Source: Gemmobacter lanyuensis (lineage in GTDB: Bacteria > Pseudomonadota > Alphaproteobacteria > Rhodobacterales > Rhodobacteraceae). Taken from it: a DNA stretch of 64,000 bases. The stretch spans positions 62,001 to 126,000 of the forward strand of contig NZ_BMYQ01000002.1 in assembly GCF_014652355.1 (NCBI RefSeq), read 5' to 3'. Shown here piece after piece: positions 19,741 through 36,129 of the stretch. A model generated the notes under the pieces. That model saw only the letters and a program-made list of their open reading frames with translations, did not search any database and had not been told where the DNA came from. Position 1 is the stretch's first letter, and every line of letters starts with the position of its first letter. A program made the translations under genes and the position numbers.

Positions 19741-19749
19741 GTCGGGTCT

Positions 19750-21342: not shown

Positions 21343-21738
21343 TCAGGGAATGACGGCGGTCGCCTCGATCTCCACCTTGGCGCGGTCTTCCACCAGGGCT
21401 ACGACCTGCACCAGCGCCATGGCCGGATAGGTGCGCCCGATCACCGCCTTGTAGACACGGCCCAGGTCTTTGAGGTTGGCAAGATATTCTTTCTTATCCG
21501 TGACATACCAGGTCAGCCGCACCAGATGTTCAGGGCGCGCGCCCGCCTCGGCCAGCACGGCGACGATGGATTTCAACGCCGTCTCGACCTGACCGACAAA
21601 GTCATCCGTCTCGAACTCCTGCTGGTCATTCCAGCCGATCAACCCGCCGGTAAAGACCATGCGGCCCGTCGCCGCGATGCCGTTGGAATAGCCCGGCGTG
21701 GCCTTCCAGCTTTTGGGGTGCAGAACCTCATGCGTCAT
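21343..21738 (-). CDS. RidA/YjgF family enamine-imine hydrolase
   Basis: The 131-residue protein belongs to the RidA family, which releases ammonia from reactive enamines and imines (VFTGGLIGWN, LVRLTWYVTDKKEYL, TYPAMALVQVVALV). The segment after VQVVALVEDRAKVEIEATAV lies where many RidA proteins carry the active-site arginine. It is the last gene of the operon headed by the anthraniloyl-CoA-type monooxygenase. Dearomatised 2-aminobenzoyl-CoA products are enamines, so a RidA protein for the deamination step fits well; this is inference from context. Its start overlaps the thioesterase stop by 11 bases. Confidence 0.82.
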   Translation of the reverse strand: MTHEVLHPKSWKATPGYSNGIAATGRMVFTGGLIGWNDQQEFETDDFVGQVETALKSIVAVLAEAGARPEHLVRLTWYVTDKKEYLANLKDLGRVYKAVIGRTYPAMALVQVVALVEDRAKVEIEATAVIP

Positions 21739-22147
21739 CGCGCGTCTCCATGAAAGCGGTCAATCTGTTGCGGATCACCTCGGGCCAGGGGGCCGACCGG
21801 CCATCCGGCATGACCCAAACGAGCGTGATCTGCGCCTGCATCCGTGCCTCGGGCCCCACCGCGCCGCGCAGCATCACCGTGGCGCTGGCCCGGCCAATCC
21901 GCTCCACCTCCAGCGCAAAGGTCAGCACATCGCCCAACCGCGACGGCGCGTAAAACTCTGCCGCGATCTTCACAGTGGGCACCCCGGCGTGTTCCTCCAT
22001 ATGGATGCGCGCAAAGGGATAGTGCAGCACCTCGGCAAAAAAGTTCTCGATGACGGAATTCGTCATCTCGAAATAGCGGGGGTAAAAGACGATCCCGGCC
22101 GGGTCGCAGTGGTTGAATTCGATCTGAATGGGGCGGCGATAGATCAT
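21728..22147 (-). CDS. 4-hydroxybenzoyl-CoA-type acyl-CoA thioesterase
   Basis: This 139-residue hotdog-fold protein has the motif [16 protein letters not shown], in which the aspartate aligns with the catalytic residue of Pseudomonas 4-hydroxybenzoyl-CoA thioesterase. It would release CoA from aromatic or alicyclic thioesters, either as a pathway step or to relieve trapped CoA. It overlaps the acyl-CoA dehydrogenase gene upstream by four bases and ridA downstream by 11. A second protein with the same motif lies at 49570. Confidence 0.85.
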
Positions 22148-23277
22148 CCCAGCACGCTCCGCGCGATGACCACGCGCTGCACGTCCGACGCACCCTCGTA
22201 AATCCGCAGCGCACGGATTTCGCGGTAAAGCCGCTCCACCGCAAAGCCGTGGCGGACGCCATCCCCCCCATGCAGCTGCACGGCGGCATCGATCACGCGC
22301 TGCGCGGCCTCGGTCGCGTACAGCTTGGCCATCGCGGCTTCCCGGCTCACTCGCGGGGCGCCCATGTCCTTGGTCCAGGCGGCGCGATAGATCAGAAGGG
22401 CGGCGGCGTCGATCTCCAGGGCCATATCCGCCAGATGCCCCTGCACCATCTGGAGGTTCGCCAGCGCCTCGCCCCCTATGCGGCGGCTCTGCACCCGCGC
22501 CAGCGCCTCGTCCAGAGCGCGGCGGGCAAAGCCAAGCGCCGCTGCACCGACCGTGGCCCGGAACACATCCAGCACCGACATGGCGATCTTGAACCCCTCG
22601 CCTGCCCGGCCGATCAACGCGCTTTCCGGAAGCTCGACCCCCGTCAGGCGCAAATGGGCCAATGGATGCGGTGCCATGACATCGATCCGCTCCACCACCT
22701 CAAGGCCGGGGGTATCGGTGGGCATCAGAAAGGCCGAAAGGCCCCGCGCCCCCGGCGCCTCGCCCGTGCGCGCAAAGATGACATAAACATCGGCGATCCC
22801 GCCGTTCGAGATATAGGTCTTTTCCCCCGTCAGGCTGTATCCCCCCGGCACCCGCGTTGCGGTGGTGGCGGTATTCGCCACATCAGACCCCGACCCCGGC
22901 TCGGTCAGGGCAAAGGCCGCAATCGCGGCCCCGCTGCGCGTCCGCGCCAACCAGTCGCGCTGCGCGGGCGTCCCGAACAGCGACACCGCCCCCATCCCCA
23001 AGCCCTGCATGGCAAAGGCGAAATCGGCCAGCCCGTCATGGCGCGCCAGAATCTCGCGGCTCAGACAGAGCGTCCGCACATCCAGCCGCTCGCCCTCGGC
23101 CGCGCCCGTGACCTGCAACCAACCCGCCGCGCCCAGATCGGCCACAAGCCCCCGACAGGCTGCATCTGTATCGCCATGGTCCACCGCCAGCCCCGCGCAC
23201 CAGTCTTCCAGCCGCGCGGCCCAGTCACGATGCCTGGCCTCGAAAAACGGCCAGTCGAGGAAAGTCTTGTCGCCCAT
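22144..23277 (-). CDS. Acyl-CoA dehydrogenase
   Basis: The 377-residue flavoenzyme has the family blocks [19 protein letters not shown] and [19 protein letters not shown], and ends with [18 protein letters not shown], where the glutamate of YEG is the usual catalytic base. It should oxidise or, in reverse, reduce a CoA-bound ring or chain intermediate. The ATG at 23277 is preceded by AAGGTG; a start six codons upstream is possible. A 51-base gap with a GC-rich hairpin separates it from the crotonase gene, the only gap in an otherwise overlapping operon. Confidence 0.9.
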
Positions 23278-23298
23278 GTTTTCACCTTGGTCCAAATA

Positions 23299-23326
23299 TC
23301 CCGGGGTCCGGGGCAGAGCCCCGGGA
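23299..23326. repeat. GC-rich intergenic hairpin element
   Basis: TCCCGGGG (23299-23306) pairs exactly with CCCCGGGA (23319-23326) around a 12-base loop. On the minus strand the hairpin is followed by ATATTTGGACC just before the acyl-CoA dehydrogenase start. From memory, hairpins of this make-up followed by TATTTGG-type sequence recur many times in Rhodobacteraceae genomes. Only one copy is in this window. Confidence 0.5.
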
Positions 23327-23328
23327 CG

Positions 23329-24141
23329 TCAGTTCCCCTCGAACACCGGTTTTTCCTTCGCGACAAAGGCGTGATAGGCCCGCGCGAAATCCTGCGTCTG
23401 CATGCAGATGGCCTGCGCCTGGGCCTCGGCCTCGATCGCCTGTTCCAGCCCCATGTTCCATTCCTGGTTCAGCTGGGTCTTGGTGATGCCATGGGCAAAG
23501 ACCGGCCCTGCCGCCAGCCGCCGGGCCAGCTTCAGCGCCTCGGTCTCCAGCACCTCGGGCGCATGCAGCGCGTTCCAGAAACCCCAGGCCGCCCCTTCGT
23601 GGGCCTCCATCACCCGCCCGGTATAAAGCAGCTCTGCCGCCCGCCCCTGCCCGATGATCCGGGGCAGCATGGCGCAGGCGCCCATGTCGCAGCCCGCCAG
23701 ACCCACGCGGGTGAAAAGGAAGGCGCATTTCGCCTCGGGCGTCGCCAGCCGCAGGTCCGAGGCCATGGCCACAATCGCCCCCGCCCCCACGCAGACCCCT
23801 TCGACCGCCGCGATGATGGGTTTGCCGCAACCGATCATCGCCTTGACCAGATCGCCGGTCATGCGGGTAAAGGCCAGAAGGCCCTTCATGTCCATGCCGA
23901 CCAGCGGCCCGATGATGTCATGCACATCACCGCCCGAGCAGAAATTCCCGCCGTTCGAGGCGAAGATCACCACATCGACATCGGTCGCATAGACCAGCGC
24001 GCGAAAGGTATCGCGCAGCTCGGCATAGCTGTCAAAGCTCAGCGGGTTCTTGCGGTCCGGGCGGTTCAGCCGCACGGTGGCGATCCGGTCCTTGACCTCC
24101 CACAGGAAATGCTTGGGCTGTAGCCCGGCGAGTTCGGTCAT
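23329..24141 (-). CDS. Crotonase family protein lacking the usual catalytic glutamates
   Basis: The 270-residue protein has the crotonase fold with the oxyanion segment [14 protein letters not shown] and the helix [19 protein letters not shown]. Enoyl-CoA hydratases carry a glutamate at GGGCELAMM; here the aligned residue is isoleucine. The second glutamate region reads [17 protein letters not shown], with no glutamate but an aspartate in GCDMG. Chemistry other than simple hydration, such as hydrolytic ring opening or isomerisation, is therefore likely. It is coupled by ATGA to the MarR gene upstream and sits in the anthraniloyl-CoA operon. Confidence 0.85.
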
Positions 24142-24623
24142 CCGCTGTCCCTTTCCGTCTCTCGTTTTTCAAGCGCGCGCCGCAGGATGTCGGACAGGCT
24201 TTCCAGATCGGCATCGCTCAGCCCCGCGAACAGGGCGTCCACCTCGCGTTCGTGGTCGGCGGCAAGGCCCTCAAACTGGCGCAGTCCTTCATCGGTCAGC
24301 GCGACATGGATGGTGCGGCGGTCCGAAACGCTGGGGGTCCGGCGGGCAAGCCCGTCCTTTTCCAGCCGGTCCACCACCGCCGTCGCATTGCCGTTTGACA
24401 CCAGCAGGGCGCGGCTCAGCTCGGTCATCGTCATCCCATCGCGACGCCGCCACAGCGCCGCCATCACGTCAAAGCGGGGCAGCGTCGTGTCGTGATTCAC
24501 CCGCAGGAATTCGCGCAGGTGGTTTTCGGCCCGCCGCGTCACGCCCAGAAGGCGGATCCAGGTTTTCAGGCGGCGTTTCGACAGGCTGCTGCGGGTGGCG
24601 TCGGGTTTCGCGGGATCGGTCAT
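24138..24623 (-). CDS. MarR family regulator inside the anthraniloyl-CoA operon
   Basis: The 161-residue protein has a winged helix of the MarR type: [40 protein letters not shown] and the wing [17 protein letters not shown]. Such regulators often sense aromatic acids or their CoA esters. The ATG at 24623 has GGAGGGG close upstream; a longer frame from 24689 lies in the SDR gene and is not used. It overlaps the SDR upstream and the crotonase downstream by four bases each, so it is produced with the enzymes it may regulate. Confidence 0.88.
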
Positions 24624-25357
24624 GTTTCCCCTCCGGCAATGGCGATTGCCTGACCGTTTATCCCCTCTGATCCCGGCGCGCACAGCCAAAGCGCAGCCGC
24701 CGTCACCTCAGCCGGCTGGATAAGCCGCTTTTGCGGGTTTGTCGCCTCGAGTGCGGCACGGGCGGCGGCGGCCTCCATCCCGGTCTTGGCCATGATATTG
24801 GCGACGGACCGTTCGGTCATTTCGGTATCAAGGAAACCGGGGCACAGCGCATTGACCGTGACCGGCCGCCGCGCGACCTCAAGGGCGAGGCTGCGGGTCA
24901 TCCCCACCACCCCGTGTTTCGCGGCCGCGTAGGGGGCGACATAGGCATAACCCTTCAGCCCGGCGGTCGAGGCAACGGCGATCAGCCGCCCCCAGCCCGG
25001 CATCTGGCGCAGCCCTTCGCGGAAAGTCAGGAAGACCCCCGTCAGGTTCACCGCCAGCATGGCGTTCCACTCCGCCAGCGAGGTTTTGGTCAAGGGCGCG
25101 CTTTCGGCCGCGCCCGCATTTGCGATGACGACATCACAAGGGCCAGCTTCGGCAAACAGGGCGGTCACGGCGGCCTCATCGGTGACATCAGCCACTAGGG
25201 CGCGGGCGCCGGTGCGGGCGGCAACCTCTTGCAGCGGCGCAAGGCGCCGCCCGGCGATCACCACCTCGGCCCCGGCGGCGGCGAAGCCGCGGGCCAGATC
25301 GGCCCCGACCCCGGTTCCCCCCCCGGTGATCAACACCCGTTTGCCTGCCATTGTCAT
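24620..25357 (-). CDS. Short-chain dehydrogenase/reductase
   Basis: This 245-residue SDR has the cofactor loop TGGGTGVGADLARGF, NANAG-type VIANAG and the catalytic Y-A-A-A-K (PYAAAKHGVVGMTRS). Being coupled by overlap to the fused monooxygenase/reductase, it probably oxidises or reduces the alicyclic hydroxy/oxo-CoA intermediate produced there. Exact substrate unknown. Confidence 0.88.
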   Translation of the reverse strand: MTMAGKRVLITGGGTGVGADLARGFAAAGAEVVIAGRRLAPLQEVAARTGARALVADVTDEAAVTALFAEAGPCDVVIANAGAAESAPLTKTSLAEWNAMLAVNLTGVFLTFREGLRQMPGWGRLIAVASTAGLKGYAYVAPYAAAKHGVVGMTRSLALEVARRPVTVNALCPGFLDTEMTERSVANIMAKTGMEAAAARAALEATNPQKRLIQPAEVTAAALWLCAPGSEGINGQAIAIAGGET

Positions 25358-27639
25358 GCGCGGATCGCCTCTTGCTGTTTCTGCGCCAGACGGAACAGCA
25401 GATCGCGGCCCCCCTTGTAGGGCGCGGGCCATTCGCTGGCCGTATCACCCTGGGCCACAGCAGCGTGCAGCGTCCAGTAGGGATCGGCCAGATGCGCGCG
25501 CGCCAGACAGACCAGATCAGCCCGGCCCGCCATCAGGATGCCGTTCACCTGATCAAAGTCGCTGATATTGCCCACGGTCATGGTGGGAATCCCCGCCTCG
25601 TTGCGGATCCTATCGCTGAACGGGGTCTGGAACATCCGGCCATAGATCGGCTTTTCCGCCGGGTCGGTCTGACCCGAGGAGACGTCGATGATATCGGCAC
25701 CGGCGGCATGGAAGGCGCGCGCGACCTCGACCGCCTCGGCGGGGGTGACGCCGCCGTCGATCCAGTCATGGGCGCTGATCCGCACCGACATGGGCTTGTC
25801 CGCAGGCCAGGCCGCGCGCATCGCGGCAAAAACCTCCAGCGGGTAGCGCAGGCGGTTTTCGAGGCTGCCACCATAGGCATCGTCGCGGCGGTTGGTTACC
25901 GGGCTGACAAAGCTGCCCAGCAGATAGCCGTGGGCGGCATGCATTTCGATCATGTCGGCCCCGGCGCGGTCGGCCATCTGCACGGCGGCAACGAAATCGG
26001 CCTTCACGCGGTCCATATCGGCGCGCGTCATGGCACGGGGGGTCTGGCTGTTGGGCTTGTAGGGCAAGGGGCTGGCGCTGATCAGATCCCAGTTGCCATC
26101 GGGCAGGGGGGCGTCGATCCCCCCGTCCCAAGGCACGCAGGTCGATCCCTTGCGCCCGGCATGGCCGATCTGCAGGCAGAGCTTCGCGCTGGTTTCCGCA
26201 TGGATGAAATCGGCCAGACGTTTCCACGCCGCTTCATGTTCCGGCGCATAAAGGCCGGGGCAGCCGGGGGTGATGCGTCCATCCGCCGACACGCAGGTCA
26301 TTTCGGTATAGATCAGCGCCGCACCGCCCTTGGCGCGCTCGGCGTAATGGGTGAAATGCCAATCCGTCGGGCAGCCATCCACGGCCTTGTATTGCGCCAT
26401 GGGCGACATCACGATGCGATTCTTCAGCGTCATGTTCCGCAGGCGGAAGGGCGTGAACATCGGACGGCGGCCCTTTTCGCCCCCTGCCTGTTCGGCGAAC
26501 CAATCCTCGGCCTCGGCCAGCCAGTCGGGGTCACGCAGGCGCAGGTTTTCATGGCTGATCCGCTGGCTGCGGGTCAGCAGCGAATAGGCGAACTGCATCG
26601 GCGGCATATCCAGATAGCGTTCGACCTGTTCGAACCATTCCAGCGAGTTGCGCGCCGCCGATTGCAGGCGCAGCACTTCGACCCGGCGCTCTTCCTGATA
26701 GCGGGCGAAGGCGGCCTGCATGTCGGGTTCGCTGTGCAGATATTCAGCCAGCGCAATCGCGCTGTCGAAGGCGAGACGCGACCCCGACCCGATCGAGAAA
26801 TGCCCCGTCGCCGCAGCATCGCCCATCAGGACGATGTTTTCGTGATACCATTTTTCGCAGATCACCCGCGGGAATTGCATCCAGACCGCCGACCCCCGCA
26901 GATGCGCCGCGTTGGACATGAGATCATGCCCCCCCAGATGGCGCTCAAAGATCTTGCGGCAGGTCTCGACCGTTTCCTCCTTCGACATCGCGGCAAAACC
27001 CCAGCGGTCCCAAGTCTCGGGCAGGGTTTCGACGATGAAGGTCGCAGTATTGTCGTCGAACTGGTAGACATGAGCCCAGACCCAGCCATGTTCGGTCTTC
27101 TCGAAAATGAAGGTGAAGGCATCATCGAATTTCTGATGCGTGCCCAGCCAGACGAACTTGCATAGGCGCGTGTCGATATCGGGCTTGAAGACATCGGCAT
27201 AATCACGGCGCACGACGCTGTTGATCCCGTCGGAGGCGACGACAAGGTCATAGTCCTTGCGATATTCCTCGGCCGCGCGGAATTCGGTTTCGAACTGCAT
27301 GTCCACGCCCAGCTCACGCGCGCGGGCCTGCAGCAGGATCAAAAGTTGCTTGCGCCCGATCCCGGCAAAGCCATGCCCGCCCGAAACGATCCGCACCCCG
27401 TTGTGGATGGTGGCAATGTCGTCCCAATAGGCGAAATGCGACCGGATCGCATCGGTGCTGACCGGGTCATTCTTCTGCATCCGGCTCAGCGCGTCATCGG
27501 ACAGCACCACCCCCCAACCGAAGGTGTCATTCGCGCGGTTGCGTTCCAGCACCGTCACCTGATGCGAGGGATCGCGCAGTTTCATCGAAATGGCGAAGTA
27601 AAGACCGGCGGGACCACCGCCAAGGCAAAGAATCTTCAT
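25354..27639 (-). CDS. Fused anthraniloyl-CoA monooxygenase/reductase
   Basis: The 761-residue protein joins two flavoenzymes. Residues 1 to about 385 are an aromatic hydroxylase with FAD motif LCLGGGPAGLYFAISM and LMGDAAATGHFSIGSGSRLA. Residues from about 395 are an old-yellow-enzyme domain (PMFTPFRLRNMTLKNRIVMS, QIGHAGRKGS, SPVTNRRDDAYGGSLENR). This fusion and length match 2-aminobenzoyl-CoA monooxygenase/reductase of Azoarcus evansii, which hydroxylates and then reduces the ring of anthraniloyl-CoA; salicylyl-CoA 5-hydroxylases are close relatives. It is the first gene of a seven-gene minus-strand operon and diverges from a beta-oxidation pair. The CoA ligase that would make its substrate is not in the window. 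Confidence 0.85.
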   Translation of the reverse strand: MKILCLGGGPAGLYFAISMKLRDPSHQVTVLERNRANDTFGWGVVLSDDALSRMQKNDPVSTDAIRSHFAYWDDIATIHNGVRIVSGGHGFAGIGRKQLLILLQARARELGVDMQFETEFRAAEEYRKDYDLVVASDGINSVVRRDYADVFKPDIDTRLCKFVWLGTHQKFDDAFTFIFEKTEHGWVWAHVYQFDDNTATFIVETLPETWDRWGFAAMSKEETVETCRKIFERHLGGHDLMSNAAHLRGSAVWMQFPRVICEKWYHENIVLMGDAAATGHFSIGSGSRLAFDSAIALAEYLHSEPDMQAAFARYQEERRVEVLRLQSAARNSLEWFEQVERYLDMPPMQFAYSLLTRSQRISHENLRLRDPDWLAEAEDWFAEQAGGEKGRRPMFTPFRLRNMTLKNRIVMSPMAQYKAVDGCPTDWHFTHYAERAKGGAALIYTEMTCVSADGRITPGCPGLYAPEHEAAWKRLADFIHAETSAKLCLQIGHAGRKGSTCVPWDGGIDAPLPDGNWDLISASPLPYKPNSQTPRAMTRADMDRVKADFVAAVQMADRAGADMIEMHAAHGYLLGSFVSPVTNRRDDAYGGSLENRLRYPLEVFAAMRAAWPADKPMSVRISAHDWIDGGVTPAEAVEVARAFHAAGADIIDVSSGQTDPAEKPIYGRMFQTPFSDRIRNEAGIPTMTVGNISDFDQVNGILMAGRADLVCLARAHLADPYWTLHAAVAQGDTASEWPAPYKGGRDLLFRLAQKQQEAIRA

Positions 27640-27701
27640 GGCCGTTCCTCTATGACGCCGTATGCGCCGTTGAGGGAAGATTTGCATCGGGTCCAAACAA
27701 T

Positions 27702-27727: not shown

Positions 27728-27832
27728 GTTTTTCCGGGATCGGCCATGATGCCCCCAAGAAAGATATTCCCGAAATCCGCGCGCGGCGCGAGGCGGAATG
27801 TCGCGGCACGCGGGTTTGGGGCGGAGGGGTCG

Positions 27833-28948
27833 ATGATCATCGGTGTGGTCGGTCTGGGGATGATGGGGCTTGGCATCGCGCAGGTCTATGCGCAGGCCGG
27901 GCATGAGGTGCGTGTGACCGACGCCCTGCCCGCCGCGCGCGAAAGCGCTCTGTCCCGGCTGGCTGCGGCGCTGGACCCCCGCGTGGCGAAGGGCGCGATG
28001 ACCGCGGCCGACCGCGATGCCCTGCTCGCGCGGGTGCAGGTGGTGGAGGATCTGGCAGGGCTTGCCCCCGCCGATCTGGTGATCGAGGCGGTGGTCGAAA
28101 AGATCGACGTGAAACAGGCGCTGCTGGCCGAATTGGAAACCGTTCTGGCGCCGGAGGCGGTGCTGGCGACCAATACGTCCTCGCTGTCGGTCGGGGCCAT
28201 CGCGCGGGGGCTGACCCGGCCCAATCGCCTGCTGGGGCTGCATTTCTTCAACCCCGCCCCGGTGATGAAGCTGGTCGAACTGATCGGCCATGACGGCACA
28301 GACCTTTCGGCGCTGACCCGCGCGCGGGATCTGACCGAGGCAGCCGGGAAGACGGTGATCGCCTGTCTCGACAGCCCCGGCTTCATCGTCAACCGCTGCG
28401 CCCGGCCGTTTTACGGTGAGGCGCTGGCCCTGTTGGAGGAAGGCCATGACCCTGCCGCCATTGACGCGGCAATGCAGGCGGCAGGCTATCGGCTGGGGCC
28501 GTTCGGGCTGATTGATCTGGTTGGCGCGGATATCAATCTGGCCGCCACCGAAAGCCTTGCGGCCGCGATGGGGGGCCATCCGCGCTATCACGTCTTTGCC
28601 GCGCTGCGGGATCAGGTCGCCTCGGGCGCGCTGGGGCGCAAGGCCGGGCGCGGCTTCGTGACGCCCCCCACCCCGGTTGCGCCGCCGCCCGAGGCCGCGC
28701 AGATCGTGGAACGGATCGAGGCGGCCCTGATCAATGAGGCCGCCTGGCTGGTGTCGGAAGGTGGCGTCTCGCGGCGGGGGGTCGATACGGCGCTGAAGCT
28801 TGGCCTCAATTTCCCGCGCGGCCCGTTCGAAATGCTGGAACGGGACGGCCCCGCCACACTGCGCGCAAGGCTGGCGGCGCTGGCCGCAGCCGCACCCGCG
28901 CATCTGCAGGGGCGCTATGCCCCCGCGCCCGGATTGGAGGCGATGTGA
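27833..28948 (+). CDS. 3-hydroxyacyl-CoA dehydrogenase
   Basis: The 371-residue NAD enzyme has the cofactor loop GVVGLGMMGLGIAQVYAQAG, the catalytic-histidine segment LLGLHFFNPAPVMKLVEL and GFIVNRCARPFYGEAL. Usual single-unit enzymes are about 280-320 residues; the PaaH/PaaC type of phenylacetate degradation is about 500 with a second C-terminal domain. This one has a shortened second domain (RRGVDTALKLGLNFPRGPFE). ATG at 27833 has GGAGGGG five bases upstream. It is coupled to a thiolase and divergent from the anthraniloyl-CoA operon, so it should serve its lower beta-oxidation steps. Confidence 0.88.
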   Translation: MIIGVVGLGMMGLGIAQVYAQAGHEVRVTDALPAARESALSRLAAALDPRVAKGAMTAADRDALLARVQVVEDLAGLAPADLVIEAVVEKIDVKQALLAELETVLAPEAVLATNTSSLSVGAIARGLTRPNRLLGLHFFNPAPVMKLVELIGHDGTDLSALTRARDLTEAAGKTVIACLDSPGFIVNRCARPFYGEALALLEEGHDPAAIDAAMQAAGYRLGPFGLIDLVGADINLAATESLAAAMGGHPRYHVFAALRDQVASGALGRKAGRGFVTPPTPVAPPPEAAQIVERIEAALINEAAWLVSEGGVSRRGVDTALKLGLNFPRGPFEMLERDGPATLRARLAALAAAAPAHLQGRYAPAPGLEAM

Positions 28949-30123
28949 TGACCGAGGTTTTCCTGTGTTCCCCGCGCCGCACCGCCATCGGGCGGCACGG
29001 CGGCGCGCTGGCGATGATGCGCCCCGACGATATGGCGGCGTATGTGATTGACGGCTTGCTGGACCTGCACCCCGATCTGATCCCGGATGAGGTGATCCTC
29101 GGCTGCGCCAATCAGGCGGGCGAGGATAACCGCAATGTCGCGCGCATGGCGGTGCTGCTGTCGCGTCTGCCGGACAGCGTGCCGGGGCTGACGGTGAACC
29201 GGCTCTGCGCCTCGGGGCTGGATGCGGTGATCGCGGGCGCGCGGGCGGTGCGTGATGGCGCCGATCTGGTGATTGCGGGCGGGGTGGAAAGCATGTCGCG
29301 CGCGCCCTTCGTGATGGGCAAGGCCGAAACCGCCTTTTCCCGTCAGGCGGAAATCCATGACACCACCATCGGCTGGCGCTTCGTGAATGACCGGATCGCC
29401 CGCGCCTATGGCTGTGAATCGATGCCCGAAACCGCCGAGAATGTGGCAGCCGCCCATGGCATTTCCCGCGCCGATCAGGATGCCTATGCCCTGTGGTCGC
29501 AACAGCGCTATGACGCCGATTGGCATGCGCCCGATATCCTGCCGGTAACGCTACAGGGCCGCAAGGGCGCGACGGTGGTGGACCGCGACGAACACCCGCG
29601 CCCGACGACGGCGGAAAAGCTGGCCACCCTGCCCACACCTTTCCGCGTGGGCGGGACGGTGACGGCGGGCAATGCCTCGGGCGTGAATGACGGTGCGGCA
29701 GCGCTGATCCTCGCCTCGGCCGCCGGGGTGGCACGTCATGGCCTGCAGCCGCTGGCGCGGATTGGGGCGGCGGCCTCGGCCGGGGTGGCGCCGGGTCTGA
29801 TGGGCATCGGCCCGGTCGCTGCAGTGGAACGGCTGGTGGCACGGGGCGCCCGCCCCCCCGCCGAACAGGACATCATCGAGCTGAATGAGGCCTTCGCGGC
29901 GCAAGTTCTGGCCTGCACGCGCAACTGGGGGCTGGCGGATGACGACCCGCGCGTGAACGCCAAGGGTGGTGGCATCAGCATGGGTCACCCGCTGGGCATG
30001 TCAGGCGCGCGGATCGCGGGGGCGGCGGCGCGGCGGCTTGCGGAAAGCGGCGGCGCCTCGGCGCTGGTCACGCTCTGCGTGGGTGTGGGCCAAGGCGTCG
30101 CGTTGGAGCTTTTGCGCCCCTGA
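28948..30123 (+). CDS. Acyl-CoA thiolase, beta-ketoadipyl-CoA thiolase type
   Basis: The 391-residue thiolase has the acyl-accepting cysteine in VNRLCASGLDAVIAGAR, the histidine in GGGISMGHPLGMSGAR and the second cysteine in LVTLCVGVGQGVALELL. It cleaves a 3-oxoacyl-CoA with CoA, the last step towards acetyl-CoA. Sequence most resembles PcaF/PaaJ proteins of aromatic degradation. GTG at 28945 and ATG at 28948 are both possible; the ATG overlaps the previous stop and has GGAGG seven bases upstream. Its stop abuts that of the convergent AraC gene in TGATCA. Confidence 0.9.
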   Translation: MTEVFLCSPRRTAIGRHGGALAMMRPDDMAAYVIDGLLDLHPDLIPDEVILGCANQAGEDNRNVARMAVLLSRLPDSVPGLTVNRLCASGLDAVIAGARAVRDGADLVIAGGVESMSRAPFVMGKAETAFSRQAEIHDTTIGWRFVNDRIARAYGCESMPETAENVAAAHGISRADQDAYALWSQQRYDADWHAPDILPVTLQGRKGATVVDRDEHPRPTTAEKLATLPTPFRVGGTVTAGNASGVNDGAAALILASAAGVARHGLQPLARIGAAASAGVAPGLMGIGPVAAVERLVARGARPPAEQDIIELNEAFAAQVLACTRNWGLADDDPRVNAKGGGISMGHPLGMSGARIAGAAARRLAESGGASALVTLCVGVGQGVALELLRP

Positions 30124-31125
30124 TCACCCGCCCTGCGCCGCGCGCAGCGTATCGCGCGGGCTAAGCCCATAGCGCGCGCGGTAGAGTTCGGAAAAGCGGC
30201 CGAAATGGGTGAAGCCCCAGCGCAGCGCCACCTGCGTGACGGTGACACCCGGCGCCGCAGTCAGCAGATCGGCATGGGCGCGCGCAAGACGCACCTCGCG
30301 CCAGAAACCCAGCGGCGTGGTGCCGCGATGCTGGCGGAAGGCCAGCTGCAAGCCGCGCGGCGAAATGCCCGCAGCCTCGGCCACGTCCTCCAGCGTGATG
30401 GGCTGGTCAAGATGCGCCTCGATATAGGATTCCGCCAGACGCAGATGCCGGGGCCGCGGGGCCGCCCGCCGCCGCCCCAGCGCGGCCATATGGTCATGCG
30501 CCGCCGCATCCAGCAGCCCCGACAGGACGGTCTTCTCGATCTGCCCCGCCATCAGCCCCGCCGCAGGGGCGGCAACAGGTGATTGCCCGGCATCCGCCTC
30601 GGCAACCAGCCACAGCACCAGCCGCCGCAGCGCCGCCCCCGGCCCGGCGGTCAGGTCCAGGGGCCCATCAAAGGTCAGTGGCCGGTCGGACGGCCCGCCC
30701 AGATGCGCGGCCAGATGCGCCTGCATGGCGGCACGGCTGATCTGCACCAGAATCTGCCGCGTGCCTTCCTCCCACTCCATCACCGTGGGCAGATGCGGGT
30801 TCAGGATCGCCGCGCGGTCCGGGGTGGACAGATAGCCCTGCGCGCCATTGCGGATCGAGGCGCCCCCGGCCAGCGGGATTTGCAGCAGGTAAAAGGCGCC
30901 CAGCTCCCCCGGCATGATCCGCGTGCGCGCGCCGTATTCGATATAGTTCAGCGACAGCCCCTGCCCCGCCAGATGGTGATGCCGCGCGGCAAAGGCCCCC
31001 CCGCCCGAGGTATCAAGCCGGTGGGGGCAGAACACCTCGGCCACGCGCGCCCGTGCCTCATCCAGATCCGAGGATCGGAACAGCACATGCCCCTGAAGGG
31101 GAAGCGGCGTCAGCGATGCGGTCAT
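30124..31125 (-). CDS. AraC family transcriptional regulator
   Basis: The 333-residue protein has an N-terminal ligand-binding domain and a C-terminal double helix-turn-helix (ITLEDVAEAAGISPRGLQLA, then VTQVALRWGFTHFGRFSELY). Proteins of this layout activate aromatic degradation operons on sensing the aromatic acid. It is divergent from the SDR-indole monooxygenase operon, with a 170-base gap containing paired CGGATAG direct repeats, so activation of that operon is the best guess. Confidence 0.88.
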   Translation of the reverse strand: MTASLTPLPLQGHVLFRSSDLDEARARVAEVFCPHRLDTSGGGAFAARHHHLAGQGLSLNYIEYGARTRIMPGELGAFYLLQIPLAGGASIRNGAQGYLSTPDRAAILNPHLPTVMEWEEGTRQILVQISRAAMQAHLAAHLGGPSDRPLTFDGPLDLTAGPGAALRRLVLWLVAEADAGQSPVAAPAAGLMAGQIEKTVLSGLLDAAAHDHMAALGRRRAAPRPRHLRLAESYIEAHLDQPITLEDVAEAAGISPRGLQLAFRQHRGTTPLGFWREVRLARAHADLLTAAPGVTVTQVALRWGFTHFGRFSELYRARYGLSPRDTLRAAQGG

Positions 31126-31235: not shown

Positions 31236-31295
31236 CTGGTTTCGCAGGCTCAGTCACAATTCCTTCAAATTCAAAGCAAAAACAGGGAGTCTCTC

Positions 31296-32066
31296 ATGGA
31301 AGGGCTGGAGGGCAAGGTTGCCATCATTCCGGGCGGCGCGACGAAAATCGGCCAGGCGATTGTCGCGGCCTTCCGCGCGGCGGGGGTGCGGGTGATGGTG
31401 GCCGATATCGCCGAACCCCCGGCGGGAATCACCGAAGGCGTGGCCTATACGCGCTGCGACCTGCGGGATGATGCGCAGATCGCGGCATTGGTACAGGCCA
31501 CGCGCGACCAGTTCGGCCGGATCGATTTTCTGGTCAATGTGGCGTGTTCCTACCTGGATAATGGCGCGGCCTCGACGCGGGCGGAATGGCTGGAAAGCCT
31601 TGATGTGAACATCGTGGGGTCGGTCATGCTGATGCAGGCCGCGCGGGCCGATCTGGCGAAGACCAAAGGCGCGATCGTGAACTTCGGCTCGATCTCGTCG
31701 CGCGTGGCACAGACGGGGCGCTGGCTCTATCCGGTGTCGAAGGCAGCGATCCTGCAGCTCACACGCAATCAGGCGATGGACCTTGCGCCCGACGGCATCC
31801 GTGTGAACGCCGTCAGCCCCGGCTGGACCTGGTCGAACATCATGGATCAGCTGACCGGCGGCGACCGCGCCAAGACCGATGCCGTGGCCGCCCCCTTCCA
31901 CCTGCTGGGCCGCGTGGGCGACCCCGAAGAGGTAGCGCAGGCGGTGCTGTTTCTCTGTTCCGACGCGGCAAGCTTCATCACCGGGACCGATCTGTGCGTG
32001 GACGGCGGCTATACCGCCATGGGCCCCGAACAGGCGGAACCCGCCATTCCGAAACTGATGGCCTGA
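31296..32066 (+). CDS. Short-chain dehydrogenase paired with the indole monooxygenase
   Basis: The 256-residue SDR has a slightly unusual cofactor loop (PGGATKIGQAIVAAF), VNVACS in place of the usual NNAG, and the catalytic Y-P-V-S-K (WLYPVSKAAILQLTRN). It begins the operon with the StyA-type oxygenase and its reductase. In the Acinetobacter iif system an SDR (IifB) oxidises indole 2,3-dihydrodiol to 3-hydroxyoxindole, and this gene occupies the same place; that role is inferred. GGGAG lies a few bases before the ATG. Confidence 0.85.
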   Translation: MEGLEGKVAIIPGGATKIGQAIVAAFRAAGVRVMVADIAEPPAGITEGVAYTRCDLRDDAQIAALVQATRDQFGRIDFLVNVACSYLDNGAASTRAEWLESLDVNIVGSVMLMQAARADLAKTKGAIVNFGSISSRVAQTGRWLYPVSKAAILQLTRNQAMDLAPDGIRVNAVSPGWTWSNIMDQLTGGDRAKTDAVAAPFHLLGRVGDPEEVAQAVLFLCSDAASFITGTDLCVDGGYTAMGPEQAEPAIPKLMA

Positions 32067-32108
32067 CGCCCGATGGCGCGGCCAGACCAAAAAACAGGGA
32101 GAATTGGC

Positions 32109-33341
32109 ATGAGAACCATCACCATCATCGGCGGCGGCCAATCGGGGCTGCAACTGGGCATCGGCCTTTTGCAGGCGGGCCACAAGGTTCGCGTCGTGCA
32201 GAACCGCACGGCCGAGGACATCGCCACCGGCAAGGTCCTGTCCAGCCAGTGCATGTTCCACACCGCCGTGCAGAACGAACGCGATCTGGGCATCGATTTC
32301 TGGAGCGATATCTGTCCCCCGGTTGAGGGCATCAACTTCATGGTCCCGCACCCTGAGGTGCCGGGTGCCAAGGCGATGGATTGGGTCGGGCGACTGGATC
32401 ACAACGCCTATTCGGTGGACCAACGGGTCAAGATCCCGCGCTGGATGGCCGAATTCACCCGGCTGGGCGGCGATCTGGTGATCCATGATGCGGGCATCGC
32501 CGATCTTGAGGATTACGCCGCCAGCGACGATCTGGTCATCATCGCCTCGGGCAAGGGCGAGATCGGGCGGCTCTTCGCCCGCGACGCCGCGAAATCCCCC
32601 TATGAGGCGCCGCAGCGGGCGCTGGCCCTGACCTATGTAAAGGGCATGACCCCGCGCGAAGGCCATTCCGCAGTCTGTTTCAACCTGATCCCCGGCGTGG
32701 GCGAATATTTCGTGTTCCCGGCGCTGACGACCTCGGGTCCCTGCGAGATCATGGTGATGGAAGGCATCCCCGGCGGCCCGATGGATTGCTGGGCCGATGT
32801 AAAGACCCCGGCCGACCATCTGGCGCGGTCAAAGCAGATCGTCGAGACTTACCTCCCTTGGGAAGCCGCGCGCTGCCGCGACATTGAGCTGACCGATGAC
32901 AACGGTATTCTTGCGGGCCGCTTTGCGCCGACGGTGCGCCATCCGGTCGGCGTGCTGCCCTCGGGGCGGAAGGTGCTGGGACTGGGCGATGCGGTCTGCC
33001 TTAATGACCCGATCACCGGGCAGGGGTCGAACAACGCCTCCAAGGCTGCGGCGGTCTATCTGCGGCGCATCCTCGACCACGGTGACCGGCCCTTTGATGC
33101 CGATTGGATGCAGGCCACCTTCGATGCCTATTGGGATTACGCGCAATGGGTGGTGCGCTGGACCAACATGATGCTGCAACCGCCGCCGCCCTTCGTGCTG
33201 GAAATCATGGGCACCGCCTGCGCCACCCCGCGTCTGGCGCAGCGCATGGCCAATGGCTTTGACGACCCGCGCGATTTCTTCCCCTGGTTCGCCGATCCCG
33301 CCGCCGCAGGCGCCTACCTGTCCGAGCTGAAGGCGGCCTGA
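32109..33341 (+). CDS. StyA/IndA-type FAD monooxygenase, probably for indole
   Basis: This 410-residue protein is the oxygenase half of a two-component group E flavin monooxygenase. The FAD motif is IIGGGQSGLQLGIGL, and GLGDAVCLNDPITGQGSNNA is the second flavin-binding block. By hand alignment with Pseudomonas StyA, the residues said to separate indole from styrene enzymes are Ser45, Gln47, Met49, Val72, Ile75 and Ala100, the pattern I recall for indole monooxygenases (S-Q-M-V/I-I-A). It would epoxidise indole using reduced FAD from the next gene. Start at 32109 has GGGAGA upstream; a start 12 codons earlier does not. Confidence 0.85.
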   Translation: MRTITIIGGGQSGLQLGIGLLQAGHKVRVVQNRTAEDIATGKVLSSQCMFHTAVQNERDLGIDFWSDICPPVEGINFMVPHPEVPGAKAMDWVGRLDHNAYSVDQRVKIPRWMAEFTRLGGDLVIHDAGIADLEDYAASDDLVIIASGKGEIGRLFARDAAKSPYEAPQRALALTYVKGMTPREGHSAVCFNLIPGVGEYFVFPALTTSGPCEIMVMEGIPGGPMDCWADVKTPADHLARSKQIVETYLPWEAARCRDIELTDDNGILAGRFAPTVRHPVGVLPSGRKVLGLGDAVCLNDPITGQGSNNASKAAAVYLRRILDHGDRPFDADWMQATFDAYWDYAQWVVRWTNMMLQPPPPFVLEIMGTACATPRLAQRMANGFDDPRDFFPWFADPAAAGAYLSELKAA

Positions 33342-33342
33342 G

Positions 33343-33837
33343 ATGGGCATGGCGATTGATCCGGGCGCCTTTCGCGCAGCCATGGCGCGGTTTCCGGGGG
33401 CGGTGACGATCATCACCGCCCGCCACGGCAGCGAACGGCGCGGCATCACGGCCACGGCGGTCTGTTCCGTCACCGCCGATCCGCCCAGCCTGCTGGTCTG
33501 CGTGAACCGCAAGACCGGCACCTGTGCCGCGATCCACGACAGCGGGCGCTTTGCGGTGAACCTGCTATCTGACCCGGCCGCGCCGCTCGCGCTGCGCTTT
33601 GCCGGGGCGGGCGGCACCACCGGCGAGGACAAGTTCGCCGAGGGTGACTGGCAGGAAGATGGCAGCGGCCTGCCGGTCTTGGCGGGGGCGCTGGTCTCCA
33701 TCTCTTGCACGGTGGCCGAGGTGATGGAGACGGGCAGCCACACCGTCTTTATCGGGCAGATCATCGAAATCCGTCAGGGGGACGGGGCGCCCCTGGTTTA
33801 TGAACAGGCGCGGTTCCACCGCCTGTCCCCATTGTAA
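33343..33837 (+). CDS. Flavin reductase partner of the indole monooxygenase
   Basis: The 164-residue protein is a flavin reductase of the HpaC/StyB fold (FRAAMARFPGAVTIITA, GITATAVCSVTADPPSLLVC and the terminal HTVFIGQIIEIRQG). It reduces FAD with NAD(P)H and hands it to the oxygenase encoded one base upstream. ATG at 33343 or 33349 could start it. A hairpin follows. Confidence 0.9.
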   Translation: MGMAIDPGAFRAAMARFPGAVTIITARHGSERRGITATAVCSVTADPPSLLVCVNRKTGTCAAIHDSGRFAVNLLSDPAAPLALRFAGAGGTTGEDKFAEGDWQEDGSGLPVLAGALVSISCTVAEVMETGSHTVFIGQIIEIRQGDGAPLVYEQARFHRLSPL

Positions 33838-33843
33838 CGGGCG

Positions 33844-33859
33844 GGGCGCCCCGGCGCCC
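33844..33859. terminator. GC-rich hairpin between convergent genes
   Basis: GGGCGCC (33844-33850) and GGCGCCC (33853-33859) form a tight hairpin in the 28 bases between the flavin reductase and the convergent regulator. There is no T-run, so it may only slow polymerase or may block read-through from both sides. Confidence 0.45.
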
Positions 33860-33865
33860 TCCCCC

Positions 33866-34432
33866 TCAGCTACGCCGGTGCGTCGCGGCCTGCCGGGCGA
33901 TTTCCTCATAGATCCCAGTCAGCACATTCAGGGTGCGGGTGGCCTCGGTCAGGCGTTCGGCAAAGCCGGGCAGGTTTTCGATGGCGGCAATCAGCAGCCG
34001 CCGCCGCAGGGCACCGTAATCCTCGGTCACGCGGCGGCCCTCGTCGGTCACCTCATAGGTGACGCCCGACCGCCCTGCACCCTTGCGCTCGACCAGACCC
34101 GCCGCAAGCAGCTTGCGGAGCGAATACTGGATATTCGGCACATCATCCCGATTCATCAGCCGCGCCAGATCCTTCAGCGTCTTGGGCCGTTCATTCATGC
34201 GGATGATGTGCAGCATGGCGTTTTCCGGCCCTGTGGCGGCCAGGTCGCAGACCGAGGACAGGCATTCCGTCTGCCAGCGCCCGAATCCCTCGAAGGTCCG
34301 CATCAGGGCAAATTCCGTCTCGGTCATGTCGACCTCGACCGGACTTTGCGCCAGATGCCAGCGCCAGTCGATCCCCCGACCCGGGGGGGGCGGGCTGTCA
34401 TCATTTTGAATTTGAAGCTTCTTTTCCGTCAT
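33866..34432 (-). CDS. MarR-like winged-helix regulator
   Basis: The 188-residue protein has a basic, glutamine-rich N-terminus, then a winged helix: PKTLKDLARLMNRDDVPNIQ, YSLRKLLAAGLVERKGAGRS and VTDEGRRVTEDY. It is divergent from the RutA-like monooxygenase gene and convergent with the indole monooxygenase operon, so it probably controls the former. ATG at 34432 has a GGGGGAG site. Its first codons contain, on the minus strand, the 13-base sequence CTTCAAATTCAAA also found before the SDR at 31296. Confidence 0.8.
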   Translation of the reverse strand: MTEKKLQIQNDDSPPPPGRGIDWRWHLAQSPVEVDMTETEFALMRTFEGFGRWQTECLSSVCDLAATGPENAMLHIIRMNERPKTLKDLARLMNRDDVPNIQYSLRKLLAAGLVERKGAGRSGVTYEVTDEGRRVTEDYGALRRRLLIAAIENLPGFAERLTEATRTLNVLTGIYEEIARQAATHRRS

Positions 34433-34476
34433 GTTTCTCCCCCGCATCGCCGGGCAGCCTGACCCGGACGAAGGTG

Positions 34477-34504
34477 TTGACGCAATGTGATTTTACGATA
34501 GACT
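34477..34504 (+). promoter_or_regulatory. Possible promoter for the RutA-like operon
   Basis: TTGACG (34477-34482) and TAGACT (34499-34504) are 16 bases apart, 43 bases before the monooxygenase start, in the most AT-rich part of the divergent gap. Confidence 0.4.
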
Positions 34505-34546
34505 TTCAAACATAAAATAAAACCAAAACTCCAACAGGGAACCAGA

Positions 34547-35638
34547 ATGACCCAACACCCGATGCTCTCGGGCGATCGTTTTCGCCTTGGCACTTTTTCG
34601 ACGAACTGCTCGTCGGGGATGACCCCGACGAAGATTCCCGGCCGCTGGAATAACAGCTGGGACAACAATCTCAAACTGGCGCAAATGCTGGATGAGGCCG
34701 GGATCGACTTCATGCTGCCGATTGCCCGCTGGATCGGCTATGGCGGCGAAACCGATTTTCACGGCGGCGTTCTGGAAACCATGACCTGGGCCGCCGGTCT
34801 GCTGGCCGCTACCAAGAACATCGCGGTCTTCGCCACCATCCACACGGCAGCCAATCACCCGGTCGTCGTGGCCAAGCAGATTGCCACCATCGACCAGATC
34901 GGCCATGGCCGCGCCGGGCTGAACATCGTGGCAGGCTGGAACAAGCCGGAATACGAGGCCCTGGGCCTGAGCCTGCCGGACGATCACGAAACCCGCTATG
35001 CCTATGCCCAGGAATGGTTCGATCTGATCCGCAAGCTTTGGACCTCGGACGAGCATTTCGATTGGGACGGCACCTATTTCAAGGCCAAGCGCGTGAAGGG
35101 TGATCCCAAGCCGCTGCGCGGGGGCGTGCCGATCCTGAATGCCGCAGGCAGCCCGCAGGGCCGCGAATTCGCAACTGACAATGCGAATTTCCTGTTCACC
35201 CCGGCCATTGATCTGGAACGGTCGAAAACCGAAATCGCGGATCTGAAGGCGCAGGCCAAGGCCAAGGGGCGCGATGTCAACGTACTGACCTTCAGCCATG
35301 TCATCTGCCGCCCGACCGAAGCCGAGGCGCAGGAATTCGCCAAATACACCGCCGTGGATAATTGCGATGCCGAGGCGGTGGACAATCTGGTGCGCCTGCA
35401 ATTCGCCCATGCCCACAGCTTCCCGCATGATCTGCTGGCGCAGATCAAGCATCTGTTCGCGCTGGGTCACGGGGGCTTCCCGCTGATTGGCACGCCGGAT
35501 CAGGTGGCGGAGGGCATCCTCAAGCTGCATGCCGCGGGCTTTGCGGGGACGACGCTGTCCTTCGTCGATTATGTCGAGGAATTCCCCTACTTCCGCGACA
35601 CCGTGCTGCCCAAGCTGGCGGCGGCAGGCATCCGCTGA
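34547..35638 (+). CDS. RutA-like flavin-dependent monooxygenase (luciferase family)
   Basis: The 363-residue protein belongs to the bacterial luciferase-like fold and resembles pyrimidine oxygenase RutA and dimethylsulfone monooxygenase SfnG (LGTFSTNCSSGMTPTKIPGR, TIHTAANHPVVVAKQIATID, GRAGLNIVAGWNKPEYEALG). RutA opens the uracil ring by oxidising a cyclic amide carbon through a flavin peroxide. Next to an indole oxidation operon that lacks an IifA-like ring opener, this enzyme may open an oxindole-type lactam to give anthranilate. That role is inference; other substrates are possible. It overlaps its own flavin reductase by one base. Confidence 0.85.
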   Translation: MTQHPMLSGDRFRLGTFSTNCSSGMTPTKIPGRWNNSWDNNLKLAQMLDEAGIDFMLPIARWIGYGGETDFHGGVLETMTWAAGLLAATKNIAVFATIHTAANHPVVVAKQIATIDQIGHGRAGLNIVAGWNKPEYEALGLSLPDDHETRYAYAQEWFDLIRKLWTSDEHFDWDGTYFKAKRVKGDPKPLRGGVPILNAAGSPQGREFATDNANFLFTPAIDLERSKTEIADLKAQAKAKGRDVNVLTFSHVICRPTEAEAQEFAKYTAVDNCDAEAVDNLVRLQFAHAHSFPHDLLAQIKHLFALGHGGFPLIGTPDQVAEGILKLHAAGFAGTTLSFVDYVEEFPYFRDTVLPKLAAAGIR

Positions 35639-36129
35639 TGGCGGCGCCTGAACCCAAGGCCTTTCGTGATGCGATGCGCGCCTTTGTCGGCAATTGCAGC
35701 GTGATCACGGTGGGCGATGGCGACCGGTCCTCGGGGCTGGTCGTCACTTCGGCGATCTCGCTTTCGGCGGAACCGCCGCTTTTGCTGGCCTGTGTCAACC
35801 GGTCCTCCTCCAGCCACCCCCTGCTGGCCGAATTCGGCCGGTTTGGCTGGTCCTCGCTCGGCGCGGCCCATCAGGCCGTGGCCGAGCGCTTTTCCGGCTT
35901 TGGGGGCGTGGCGGGCGCGGCCCGGTATGAGGGCGCCGAATGGGAAACCGCCGTCACGGGCGCGCGGCTGCTGAAAGGCGCCCCGGCGGCCTTTGATTGT
36001 GAGGTCGAAGAGATGATCGACCGCGCGACCCACAGCATCCTGATCGGCAGGGTCCGTGCCATCCGCACCACGCCGGGCGCGGGGGCGCTGATCTACTGGA
36101 ACGGGGCCTATCGCGCGCTGGAAGACTGA
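35638..36129 (+). CDS. Flavin reductase partner of the RutA-like monooxygenase
   Basis: This 163-residue protein has the HpaC/RutF-type flavin reductase fold (FRDAMRAFVGNCSVITVG, SSGLVVTSAISLSAEPPLLL, HSILIGRVRAI). It should supply reduced FMN to the monooxygenase immediately upstream. It is distinct from the reductase at 33343, so each oxygenase has its own partner. A strong bidirectional terminator follows. Confidence 0.9.
   Translation: MAAPEPKAFRDAMRAFVGNCSVITVGDGDRSSGLVVTSAISLSAEPPLLLACVNRSSSSHPLLAEFGRFGWSSLGAAHQAVAERFSGFGGVAGAARYEGAEWETAVTGARLLKGAPAAFDCEVEEMIDRATHSILIGRVRAIRTTPGAGALIYWNGAYRALED

Follow-up and report, generated by a model that had tools for sequence, protein, structure and literature searches.

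Gene organization of the locus

We analyzed a 64,000-nucleotide window of the 4.03 Mb genome of Gemmobacter lanyuensis (contig NZ_BMYQ01000002.1, positions 62,001 to 126,000), in which a row of catabolic operons at 21343-49585 probably serves the degradation of indole by way of isatin, isatinate, and anthraniloyl-CoA. An earlier note on this DNA had described the genes at 21343-36129 as an indole-oxidizing module joined to one that dearomatizes anthraniloyl-CoA. The gene classes it named are all present there, correctly typed and placed, and the joining of the two modules is borne out by our analysis, but its span stops short of an adjoining operon (36187-42733). As this operon carries the genes of an isatin hydrolase and of a two-subunit oxidoreductase (IorA and IorB, together IorAB), it changes how the locus is to be interpreted.

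The adjoining operon is a tight minus-strand row in the order isatin hydrolase, FAD oxidoreductase, MarR-family regulator, IorA, and IorB. Foremost among its products, the isatin hydrolase (41930-42733) belongs to PF04199 and matches isatin hydrolase B from Labrenzia aggregata (PDB ID: 4j0n) over nearly its full length (487 bits, E = 1.3e-145), a characterized enzyme from which it shows no difference of kind. It also carries the HxxxHxD metal motif (the metal residues of isatin hydrolase are described in PMC6117287), and its match to kynurenine formamidases is far weaker (about 3e-5). Its nearest relatives, among the matches listed, are proteins of Rhodobacteraceae such as Tabrizicola and Rhodobacter, which are 92-95% identical. 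Next in the row is a CrtO/amine-oxidase-like FAD oxidoreductase (40361-41923; PF01593 and PF13450), for which we propose the oxidation of dioxindole to isatin. In other lineages its gene adjoins those of the hydrolase and the indole monooxygenase, and a PDB sequence search with it gave three weak matches. The MarR-family regulator of this operon (39882-40520) matches SlyA/MarR-type models, none above cut-off, and its true start probably lies below 40361.

The last two genes of the row encode a pair of partner subunits. The IorA-type subunit (37731-39878; PF02775) has thiamine diphosphate (TPP) and CxxCxxC...CP motifs, scores 279 bits with the IOR_alpha model (cut-off 650.9), and found no match at 0.001 in a PDB sequence search. 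The IorB-type subunit (36187-37734) joins a POR domain (PF01558) to DUF6537 (PF20169), scoring 703.8 bits with NF006179 (cut-off 348) and 42.3 bits with IOR_beta (cut-off 205.8). Since both subunits miss the curated models of indolepyruvate ferredoxin oxidoreductase, that name is not earned. The hallmarks of the wider 2-oxoacid:acceptor oxidoreductase superfamily, namely TPP-binding and POR domains and ferredoxin-type cysteines, are all found in IorAB, and we propose that the pair is an isatinate:acceptor oxidoreductase forming anthraniloyl-CoA. DUF6537, a domain of unknown function, takes up the C-terminal part of IorB (residues 261-471).

The genes for indole oxidation lie on the plus strand, beginning with a short-chain dehydrogenase/reductase (SDR; 31296-32066; NF006121, 387 bits against a cut-off of 294) proposed to turn indole-2,3-dihydrodiol into 3-hydroxyindolin-2-one, and whose gene adjoins the indole monooxygenase in other lineages too. 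It is followed by the StyA-type oxygenase part of a two-component indole monooxygenase (32073-33341; PF17885), the start of which is more probably the ATG at 32109, and by the flavin reductase of this enzyme (33343-33837; PF01613). Homologs of the oxygenase are annotated as styrene/indole monooxygenase, and nearly its whole length is matched (E = 1.5e-195) by the solved flavoprotein oxygenase subunit in PDB ID: 7z4x, which we take to be an indole monooxygenase. The StyA-type oxygenase, flavin reductase, and SDR by which iif/ind indole clusters are recognized are thus found together. On the minus strand beside them is an AraC-type regulator (30124-31125; PF14525 and PF12833), AndR-like at 173 bits, under the cut-off of 350.

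The lower, dearomatizing cluster centers on a fused enzyme of the 2-aminobenzoyl-CoA monooxygenase/reductase type (25354-27696, minus strand; NF006101, 1278.6 bits against a cut-off of 1078), in which an FAD monooxygenase domain (PF01494) and an old yellow enzyme domain (PF00724) are combined, as expected of the aerobic 2-aminobenzoyl-CoA pathway; its start is more probably nearer 27639. Also on the minus strand are an SDR (24620-25432; SDR models, with the same gene order in relatives), a second MarR-family regulator (24138-24689; MarR-type models, none above cut-off), an enoyl-CoA hydratase/crotonase (23329-24141; NF006107, 479 bits against a cut-off of 330), an acyl-CoA dehydrogenase family protein (22144-23295; 22 acyl-CoA dehydrogenase-type models, none above cut-off), a 4HBT-type thioesterase (21728-22147; PF13279), and a RidA-family protein (21343-21738; PF01042; TIGR00004 at 57.9 bits, under cut-off). 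The earlier note was right to count RidA as a cluster member, since, among 21 clusters for which the stretch covered at least 5 kb to either side, 13 have its gene no more than 12 kb away. Two further genes, on the plus strand, encode a 3-hydroxyacyl-CoA dehydrogenase (27746-28948; PaaH/3-hydroxyacyl-CoA dehydrogenase models, under cut-off) and a thiolase (28945-30123; TIGR01930, 357 bits against a cut-off of 240.55) close to 3-oxoadipyl-CoA thiolase (NF006551, 542 bits, under its cut-off of 605).

Several neighboring genes complete the picture. A luciferase-like flavin monooxygenase (34547-35638, plus strand; PF00296) is followed by a second flavin reductase (35638-36129, plus strand; PF01613) that probably serves it. 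This oxygenase had been called RutA-like; the luciferase-like family holds, though not the RutA assignment, the score being higher for SfnG (187 bits) than for RutA (155 bits). As both fall under cut-off, the protein can only be placed in the wider luciferase-like family. Divergent from the isatin operon, a second CrtO-like FAD oxidoreductase (42859-44469, plus strand; PF01593) precedes the plus-strand genes of a peptide-type ABC transporter (44466-49585; binding protein, two permeases, and two ATPases, the ATPases being typed only by their match to genes so annotated in Alloyangia), which we propose imports an indolic or related compound. A tRNA-Thr gene (cgt; 50130-50205) lies just past the transporter genes. 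On the other flank, 15 bases separate the 3′ end of the RidA gene from a run of genes for the use of glycerol-3-phosphate (9405-21327). They encode a glycerol-3-phosphate dehydrogenase above cut-off (12040-13632), a weaker second protein of this kind (9405-11075), UgpC-like ATPases under cut-off (13622-15831), and, as read by eye only, a solute-binding protein (17929-19740) and a glycerol kinase (19780-21327).

Conservation around the isatin hydrolase

We scanned genomes for the isatin hydrolase and worked with the best 80 of 278 loci. Among these, IorA and IorB are encoded on the strand of the hydrolase in 60 of the 61 loci having at least 7 kb 3′ of it. In the 49 full-length loci, counting matches of at least 45% identity inside the 10 kb flanks, both Ior subunits are found in 48, the FAD oxidoreductase in 42, the second FAD oxidoreductase in 41, the transporter binding protein in 40, the luciferase-like gene in 23, the indole monooxygenase in 11, and the monooxygenase/reductase in 6. 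The FAD oxidoreductase is absent and IorAB kept in seven of these loci, and a plasmid stretch of Sulfitobacter indolifex holds only hydrolase, MarR, IorA, and IorB. On plasmids, 43 records matched IorB, and 36 of them recur in the list of hydrolase records (50 of 57 listed). The two genes lie within 20 kb of each other in 35 of these, and in the 36th they are about 3.4 kb apart only if the record is circular.

The hydrolase also goes together with the monooxygenase/reductase at the level of genomes. In a family sample of 150 genomes (one per genus), the monooxygenase/reductase is found in 51, the hydrolase in 23, and both in 21, which means that 21 of 23 hydrolase carriers have the monooxygenase/reductase as compared with 30 of 127 non-carriers (Fisher p = 8e-10, uncorrected for shared ancestry). 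The hydrolase is rarer in a phylum sample (25 of 398 genomes, from 16 genera), where 24 of the 25 carriers have the monooxygenase/reductase and 23 have IorB. Moreover, 48 of 49 genomes holding loci from the hydrolase scan (50 loci picked, with L057 left out) have the monooxygenase/reductase, against a class background of 71 in 385.

Certain gene arrangements bring IorAB and the lower cluster into direct contact. In one genome (G202), hydrolase, IorA, and IorB face a row of RidA, thioesterase, dehydrogenase, crotonase, MarR, SDR, and monooxygenase/reductase; here, the genome has no match to the ligase model TIGR02262 at 1e-80, and a distant AMP-ligase (32% to the query) is found in the stretch. 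The same lower cluster adjoins IorA, IorB, and hydrolase in G914, with no close ligase in the stretch. A member of another class (G777) has two copies of the monooxygenase/reductase, one in a row with IorA, IorB, and thioesterase and no ligase match in the stretch, the other, on a second contig, with SDR, MarR, crotonase, dehydrogenase, and ligase and no IorAB. A further genome (G843) has an IorAB arrangement like that of G777, and both carry the row SDR, indole monooxygenase, flavin reductase, hydrolase, and FAD oxidoreductase. Comparably, a plasmid of Alloyangia pacifica (NZ_CP022192) holds the indole genes, the monooxygenase/reductase, and the isatin/IorAB genes within about 27 kb. First come AraC, SDR, indole monooxygenase and its reductase, and the monooxygenase/reductase with SDR, thioesterases, and RidA, and then hydrolase, FAD oxidoreductase, MarR, IorA, IorB, the second FAD oxidoreductase, transporter, and a ligase with 71% identity to that of the window genome. 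This stretch has no match to the luciferase-like gene, crotonase, acyl-CoA dehydrogenase, hydroxyacyl-CoA dehydrogenase, or thiolase.

Two kinds of indole locus can be told apart by gene content. As a query for the IifA-type oxygenase we used a dienelactone-hydrolase-family gene of Burkholderia pyrrocinia, which from its position and fold we infer to be IifA; it gave no match in the window. Of 21 plasmid records matching the indole monooxygenase, we read stretches of ten, in which the IifA-like gene is found in four, the hydrolase with FAD oxidoreductase in two, both in none, and neither in four. On this evidence the window is of the hydrolase and FAD oxidoreductase kind, and not of the IifA-like kind. 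None of the 80 scan loci, which were selected for the hydrolase, has an IifA-like match, and one is found in a rhizobial hydrolase stretch lacking the indole monooxygenase (L211).

As for the luciferase-like gene, a needed role for it, as the earlier note had supposed, is not supported by its distribution: at 45% identity or more it occurs in 5 of 17 other loci in which the stretch read holds the isatin hydrolase as well as the indole monooxygenase, and is missing from the other 12. A RutA-like amide cleavage of isatin was set aside on these counts, though the enzyme may still have a part, given homologs with 39-43% identity close to genes of this pathway in seven stretches from rhizobia (L213, L219, L255, L257, L259, L267, and L268). 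These rhizobial homologs may mark a further oxidation step outside the route proposed below.

Grouping of IorB sequences

A tree of 67 IorB rows, hand-chosen from the fetched loci and rooted at the midpoint, splits into two groups, each with support of 100/100; given this rooting, they are the two sides of one branch. The group of the window (47 rows) contains 35 hydrolase-linked rows, three linked to the monooxygenase/reductase only, and nine with neither in the stretch, and the other group (20 rows) has none linked to the hydrolase, two linked to the monooxygenase/reductase only (from one family), and 18 with neither. The hydrolase label changes 8 times on the tree, as compared with 22.5 times in shuffles. 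As to the labels, L218 and L256 are one gene entered twice, counted once as hydrolase-linked and once, as L256, among the three linked to the monooxygenase/reductase only, because the stretch of L256 stops short of the hydrolase. L166 was assigned manually to the monooxygenase/reductase-only label, this gene being on the next stretch (L167). In two genomes of one family (L164/L165 and L166/L167), IorAB of the other group sits beside a monooxygenase/reductase cluster, with no hydrolase or ligase match in the stretch.

The anthranilate-CoA ligase

An anthranilate-CoA ligase, which is expected in the cluster of an aerobic 2-aminobenzoyl-CoA pathway, is not found in the window: the genome has 19 matches to TIGR02262, and all of them lie outside it. 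The earlier note had passed over this gap. The best candidate (341.9 bits, cut-off 375.25), on contig C19, shares bases with the gene of a tryptophan 2,3-dioxygenase, a position that fits a role on anthranilate derived from kynurenine, though as a suggestive and not a general sign.

An early hint that IorAB replaces the ligase came from four IorB-linked clusters with no ligase within 15 kb, 38 of the 70 others having one (74 monooxygenase/reductase and 132 ligase rows, both complete, with second IorB fragments in G044 and G351 left out). Similarly, among 21 clusters flanked by 5 kb in both directions, seven have IorB in the stretch, and a ligase is present in one of the seven and in eight of the other 14, some of which have IorB just past the end of the stretch. 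The case for strict replacement was weakened when 40 of 48 hydrolase carriers proved to have a ligase no more than 15 kb from the monooxygenase/reductase (34 on its strand and 6 on the other). Together with the Alloyangia plasmid, where IorAB and a ligase share one cluster, this means that IorAB is not a general substitute for the ligase. The count of 40 used 46 of 56 ligase rows. Each of the remaining ten rows (seven over 465 bits and three of 274-287 bits) is either on a different contig from the monooxygenase/reductase or over 60 kb away from it, and one of two genomes counted as lacking a ligase (G398) has one weak row among them.

Proposed route and its alternatives

We consider it probable that 21343-49585 is a catabolic super-locus that leads from indole through isatin and isatinate to anthraniloyl-CoA, followed by dearomatization and beta-oxidation. 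Gene families, the identity of the isatin hydrolase, operon conservation, co-occurrence, and the IorB grouping are read from sequence, and we infer all substrates, chiefly those of IorAB (isatinate) and of the FAD oxidoreductase (dioxindole). Here, the indole monooxygenase and its flavin reductase would convert indole to the epoxide or dihydrodiol, from which the SDR at 31296 would make 3-hydroxyindolin-2-one (dioxindole), to be oxidized to isatin by the FAD oxidoreductase at 40361. The isatin hydrolase would then open the lactam, giving isatinate (2-aminophenylglyoxylate), an alpha-keto acid on which the thiamine-diphosphate and iron-sulfur enzyme IorAB would act with CoA in an oxidative decarboxylation to anthraniloyl-CoA and CO2. 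The related phenylglyoxylate oxidoreductase converts an aryl-glyoxylate to an aroyl-CoA by the same chemistry. Because IorAB would yield anthraniloyl-CoA directly, such a route would need neither free anthranilate nor an ATP-dependent ligase. The fused monooxygenase/reductase would next dearomatize anthraniloyl-CoA, RidA would assist in hydrolyzing the enamine or imine so formed, and crotonase, acyl-CoA dehydrogenase, hydroxyacyl-CoA dehydrogenase, thiolase, and thioesterase would complete the degradation. On balance, we also lean toward the view that one whole group among the proteins that go by the name of indolepyruvate oxidoreductase consists of isatinate:acceptor oxidoreductases making anthraniloyl-CoA. 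With isatin hydrolase, such an enzyme would form a portable, ATP-saving converter through which both indole (monooxygenase) and auxin (iad) loci gain entry to the dearomatizing CoA pathway.

A number of observations weigh against this route. The co-occurrence test does not remove the relatedness of the genomes; two genomes (G446 and G530) carry the hydrolase and lack the monooxygenase/reductase; and another (G872) has the hydrolase and the lower cluster with no IorB match at 1e-60. In the stretches from Alloyangia, G777, and G843, no crotonase or acyl-CoA dehydrogenase match lies beside the IorAB-linked copy. The nine rows of the window's IorB group with neither link in the stretch read count likewise (in two of them, L260 and L263, the hydrolase is about 23-31 kb away), as do G029 and G160 (one family), in which IorAB of the other group lies beside the monooxygenase/reductase with no hydrolase match in the stretch. 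Among ligases, any of the 19 family matches in the genome might act on anthranilate, and both the ligase near the monooxygenase/reductase in most hydrolase carriers and the shared Alloyangia cluster have to be reckoned with. Lastly, in a 2025 preprint (PMC12633357), the iad pathway was rebuilt with iadC-K2, which fully restored anthranilic acid. Judging by gene names, this set lacks iadAB (iadA and iadB have no mentions in the available text), so anthranilate can arise without IadAB, the homologs of IorA and IorB. In favor of the route, overexpression of iadC-K2 in Variovorax led to the accumulation of C8H7NO3, which the authors showed to be something other than N-formylanthranilic acid, and of C7H7NO (PMC12633357), formulas that, in our reinterpretation, fit isatinate and 2-aminobenzaldehyde, as a missing IorAB would cause.

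Of the alternatives, a possible though unlikely one is that the locus serves mainly another indolic compound, such as an indole acid or oxindole, which the ABC transporter would import, with the oxidation of indole as a side activity. Within 10 kb of the hydrolase, the transporter (40 of 49 loci) and second FAD oxidoreductase (41 of 49) are commoner than the indole monooxygenase (11 of 49), and the same hydrolase and IorAB pair occurs in an auxin iad-type operon, yet the indole monooxygenase stands in one row with the hydrolase in other lineages, and a comparable indole cluster has been published for Providencia rettgeri (PMC9871250). We are rather doubtful that isatinate is instead turned into free anthranilate and activated by a ligase elsewhere in the genome, with IorAB acting on some other keto acid (e.g., indolepyruvate from tryptophan) and merely co-regulated. 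While a suitable ligase does exist on another contig, 40 of 48 relatives have one near the monooxygenase/reductase, and iad strains make free anthranilate, even with the gene set lacking iadAB (PMC9613470, PMC12633357), the ligase in question adjoins tryptophan 2,3-dioxygenase, IorAB keeps to the strand of the isatin hydrolase in 60 of 61 loci, both its subunits fall under the indolepyruvate oxidoreductase cut-offs, and it takes the place of the ligase at one of the two monooxygenase/reductase copies in G777. The passage given in the earlier note, an iif-type conversion of indole to anthranilate with RutA-like ring opening, then ligase and monooxygenase/reductase, is highly improbable, in that, although indole monooxygenase, SDR, flavin reductase, and luciferase-like gene share one stretch and homologs of the last accompany pathway genes in rhizobia, the window lacks both a ligase and a match to the Burkholderia IifA-like gene, which never occurs with the hydrolase in the ten plasmid stretches, the luciferase-like gene is absent from 12 of 17 comparable loci, and the isatin hydrolase operon next door had been overlooked.

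Comparison with known systems

With the iif/ind clusters of Acinetobacter and Cupriavidus (PMC6221969) and Burkholderia stretches, the window shares the StyA-type indole monooxygenase, flavin reductase, SDR, and AraC regulator; it differs in having the isatin hydrolase, FAD oxidoreductase, and IorAB instead of an IifA-like gene. Closer in this respect is the cluster of Providencia rettgeri GS-2 (PMC9871250), which has in common a PF04199 protein (GS-A), SDR, StyA-type monooxygenase, flavin reductase, and AraC, as well as an oxidoreductase gene of 1613 bp that we liken to the FAD oxidoreductases of the window by size only. Its authors propose a passage through anthranilate, salicylate, and catechol, and no IorAB or anthraniloyl-CoA branch is described in the available text of the paper. 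The yellow product of GS-A (m/z 164.0355) was called N-formylanthranilate (PMC9871250), the formula of which is identical to that of isatinate. With GS-A in the Pfam family of isatin hydrolase, this assignment may deserve a second look.

The lower cluster has the fused monooxygenase/reductase and beta-oxidation-type genes in common with the 2-aminobenzoyl-CoA pathway of Azoarcus evansii (PMC3534580, PMC6221969), though it lacks the anthranilate-CoA ligase, and IorAB is proposed as the feeder instead. The quinaldine pathway of Arthrobacter likewise feeds an anthranilate-CoA ligase and a monooxygenase/reductase of the same kind (PMC3534580). The combination of indole oxidation with the 2-aminobenzoyl-CoA pathway, of which the earlier note knew no description, has a precedent in Cupriavidus: a 2018 review (PMC6221969), citing Qu et al. 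(2017), reports that an indole-degrading member of this genus depends on a 2-aminobenzoyl-CoA gene cluster as vital to its breakdown of anthranilate.

The iad auxin loci of Variovorax and Bradyrhizobium (PMC9613470, PMC12633357) share MarR control and homologs of IorA and IorB (IadA and IadB) with the window, where the IorA/IorB pair, hydrolase-family gene, and MarR regulator typical of these loci are all found. For the iad pathway, isatin and isatinic acid are intermediates and IadI is annotated as a kynurenine formamidase (PMC9613470, PMC12633357). Where the window has an indole monooxygenase, the iad loci rely on side-chain removal and the Rieske oxygenase IadCDE, and no IadDE-type Rieske oxygenase is among the genes scanned from 21343 to 47926. 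In an alphaproteobacterial iad-type locus (L300), we found a row of IorA, IorB, reductase, Rieske alpha and beta subunits, AMP-ligase, thiolase, SDR, and PF04199 hydrolase, with a divergent MarR gene, and this fits the described order from iadA to iadI. The available text of the iad literature (PMC9613470, PMC12633357) yielded no role for IadA and IadB. An assignment of IorAB to the conversion of isatinate to anthraniloyl-CoA was not found in the literature searched, which covers few subscription papers.

Implications

The review cited above raises two questions, whether indole degradation really passes through isatin and how anthranilate is then dealt with (PMC6221969), and the locus suggests an answer to both, with isatin on the path and free anthranilate bypassed. 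A corrected name is hereby proposed for an apparently misnamed enzyme group among the proteins called indolepyruvate oxidoreductase. If the proposed route is true, isatin would be a genuine intermediate of aerobic indole degradation in these bacteria, and IadA and IadB would gain a function in auxin-degrading plant bacteria.

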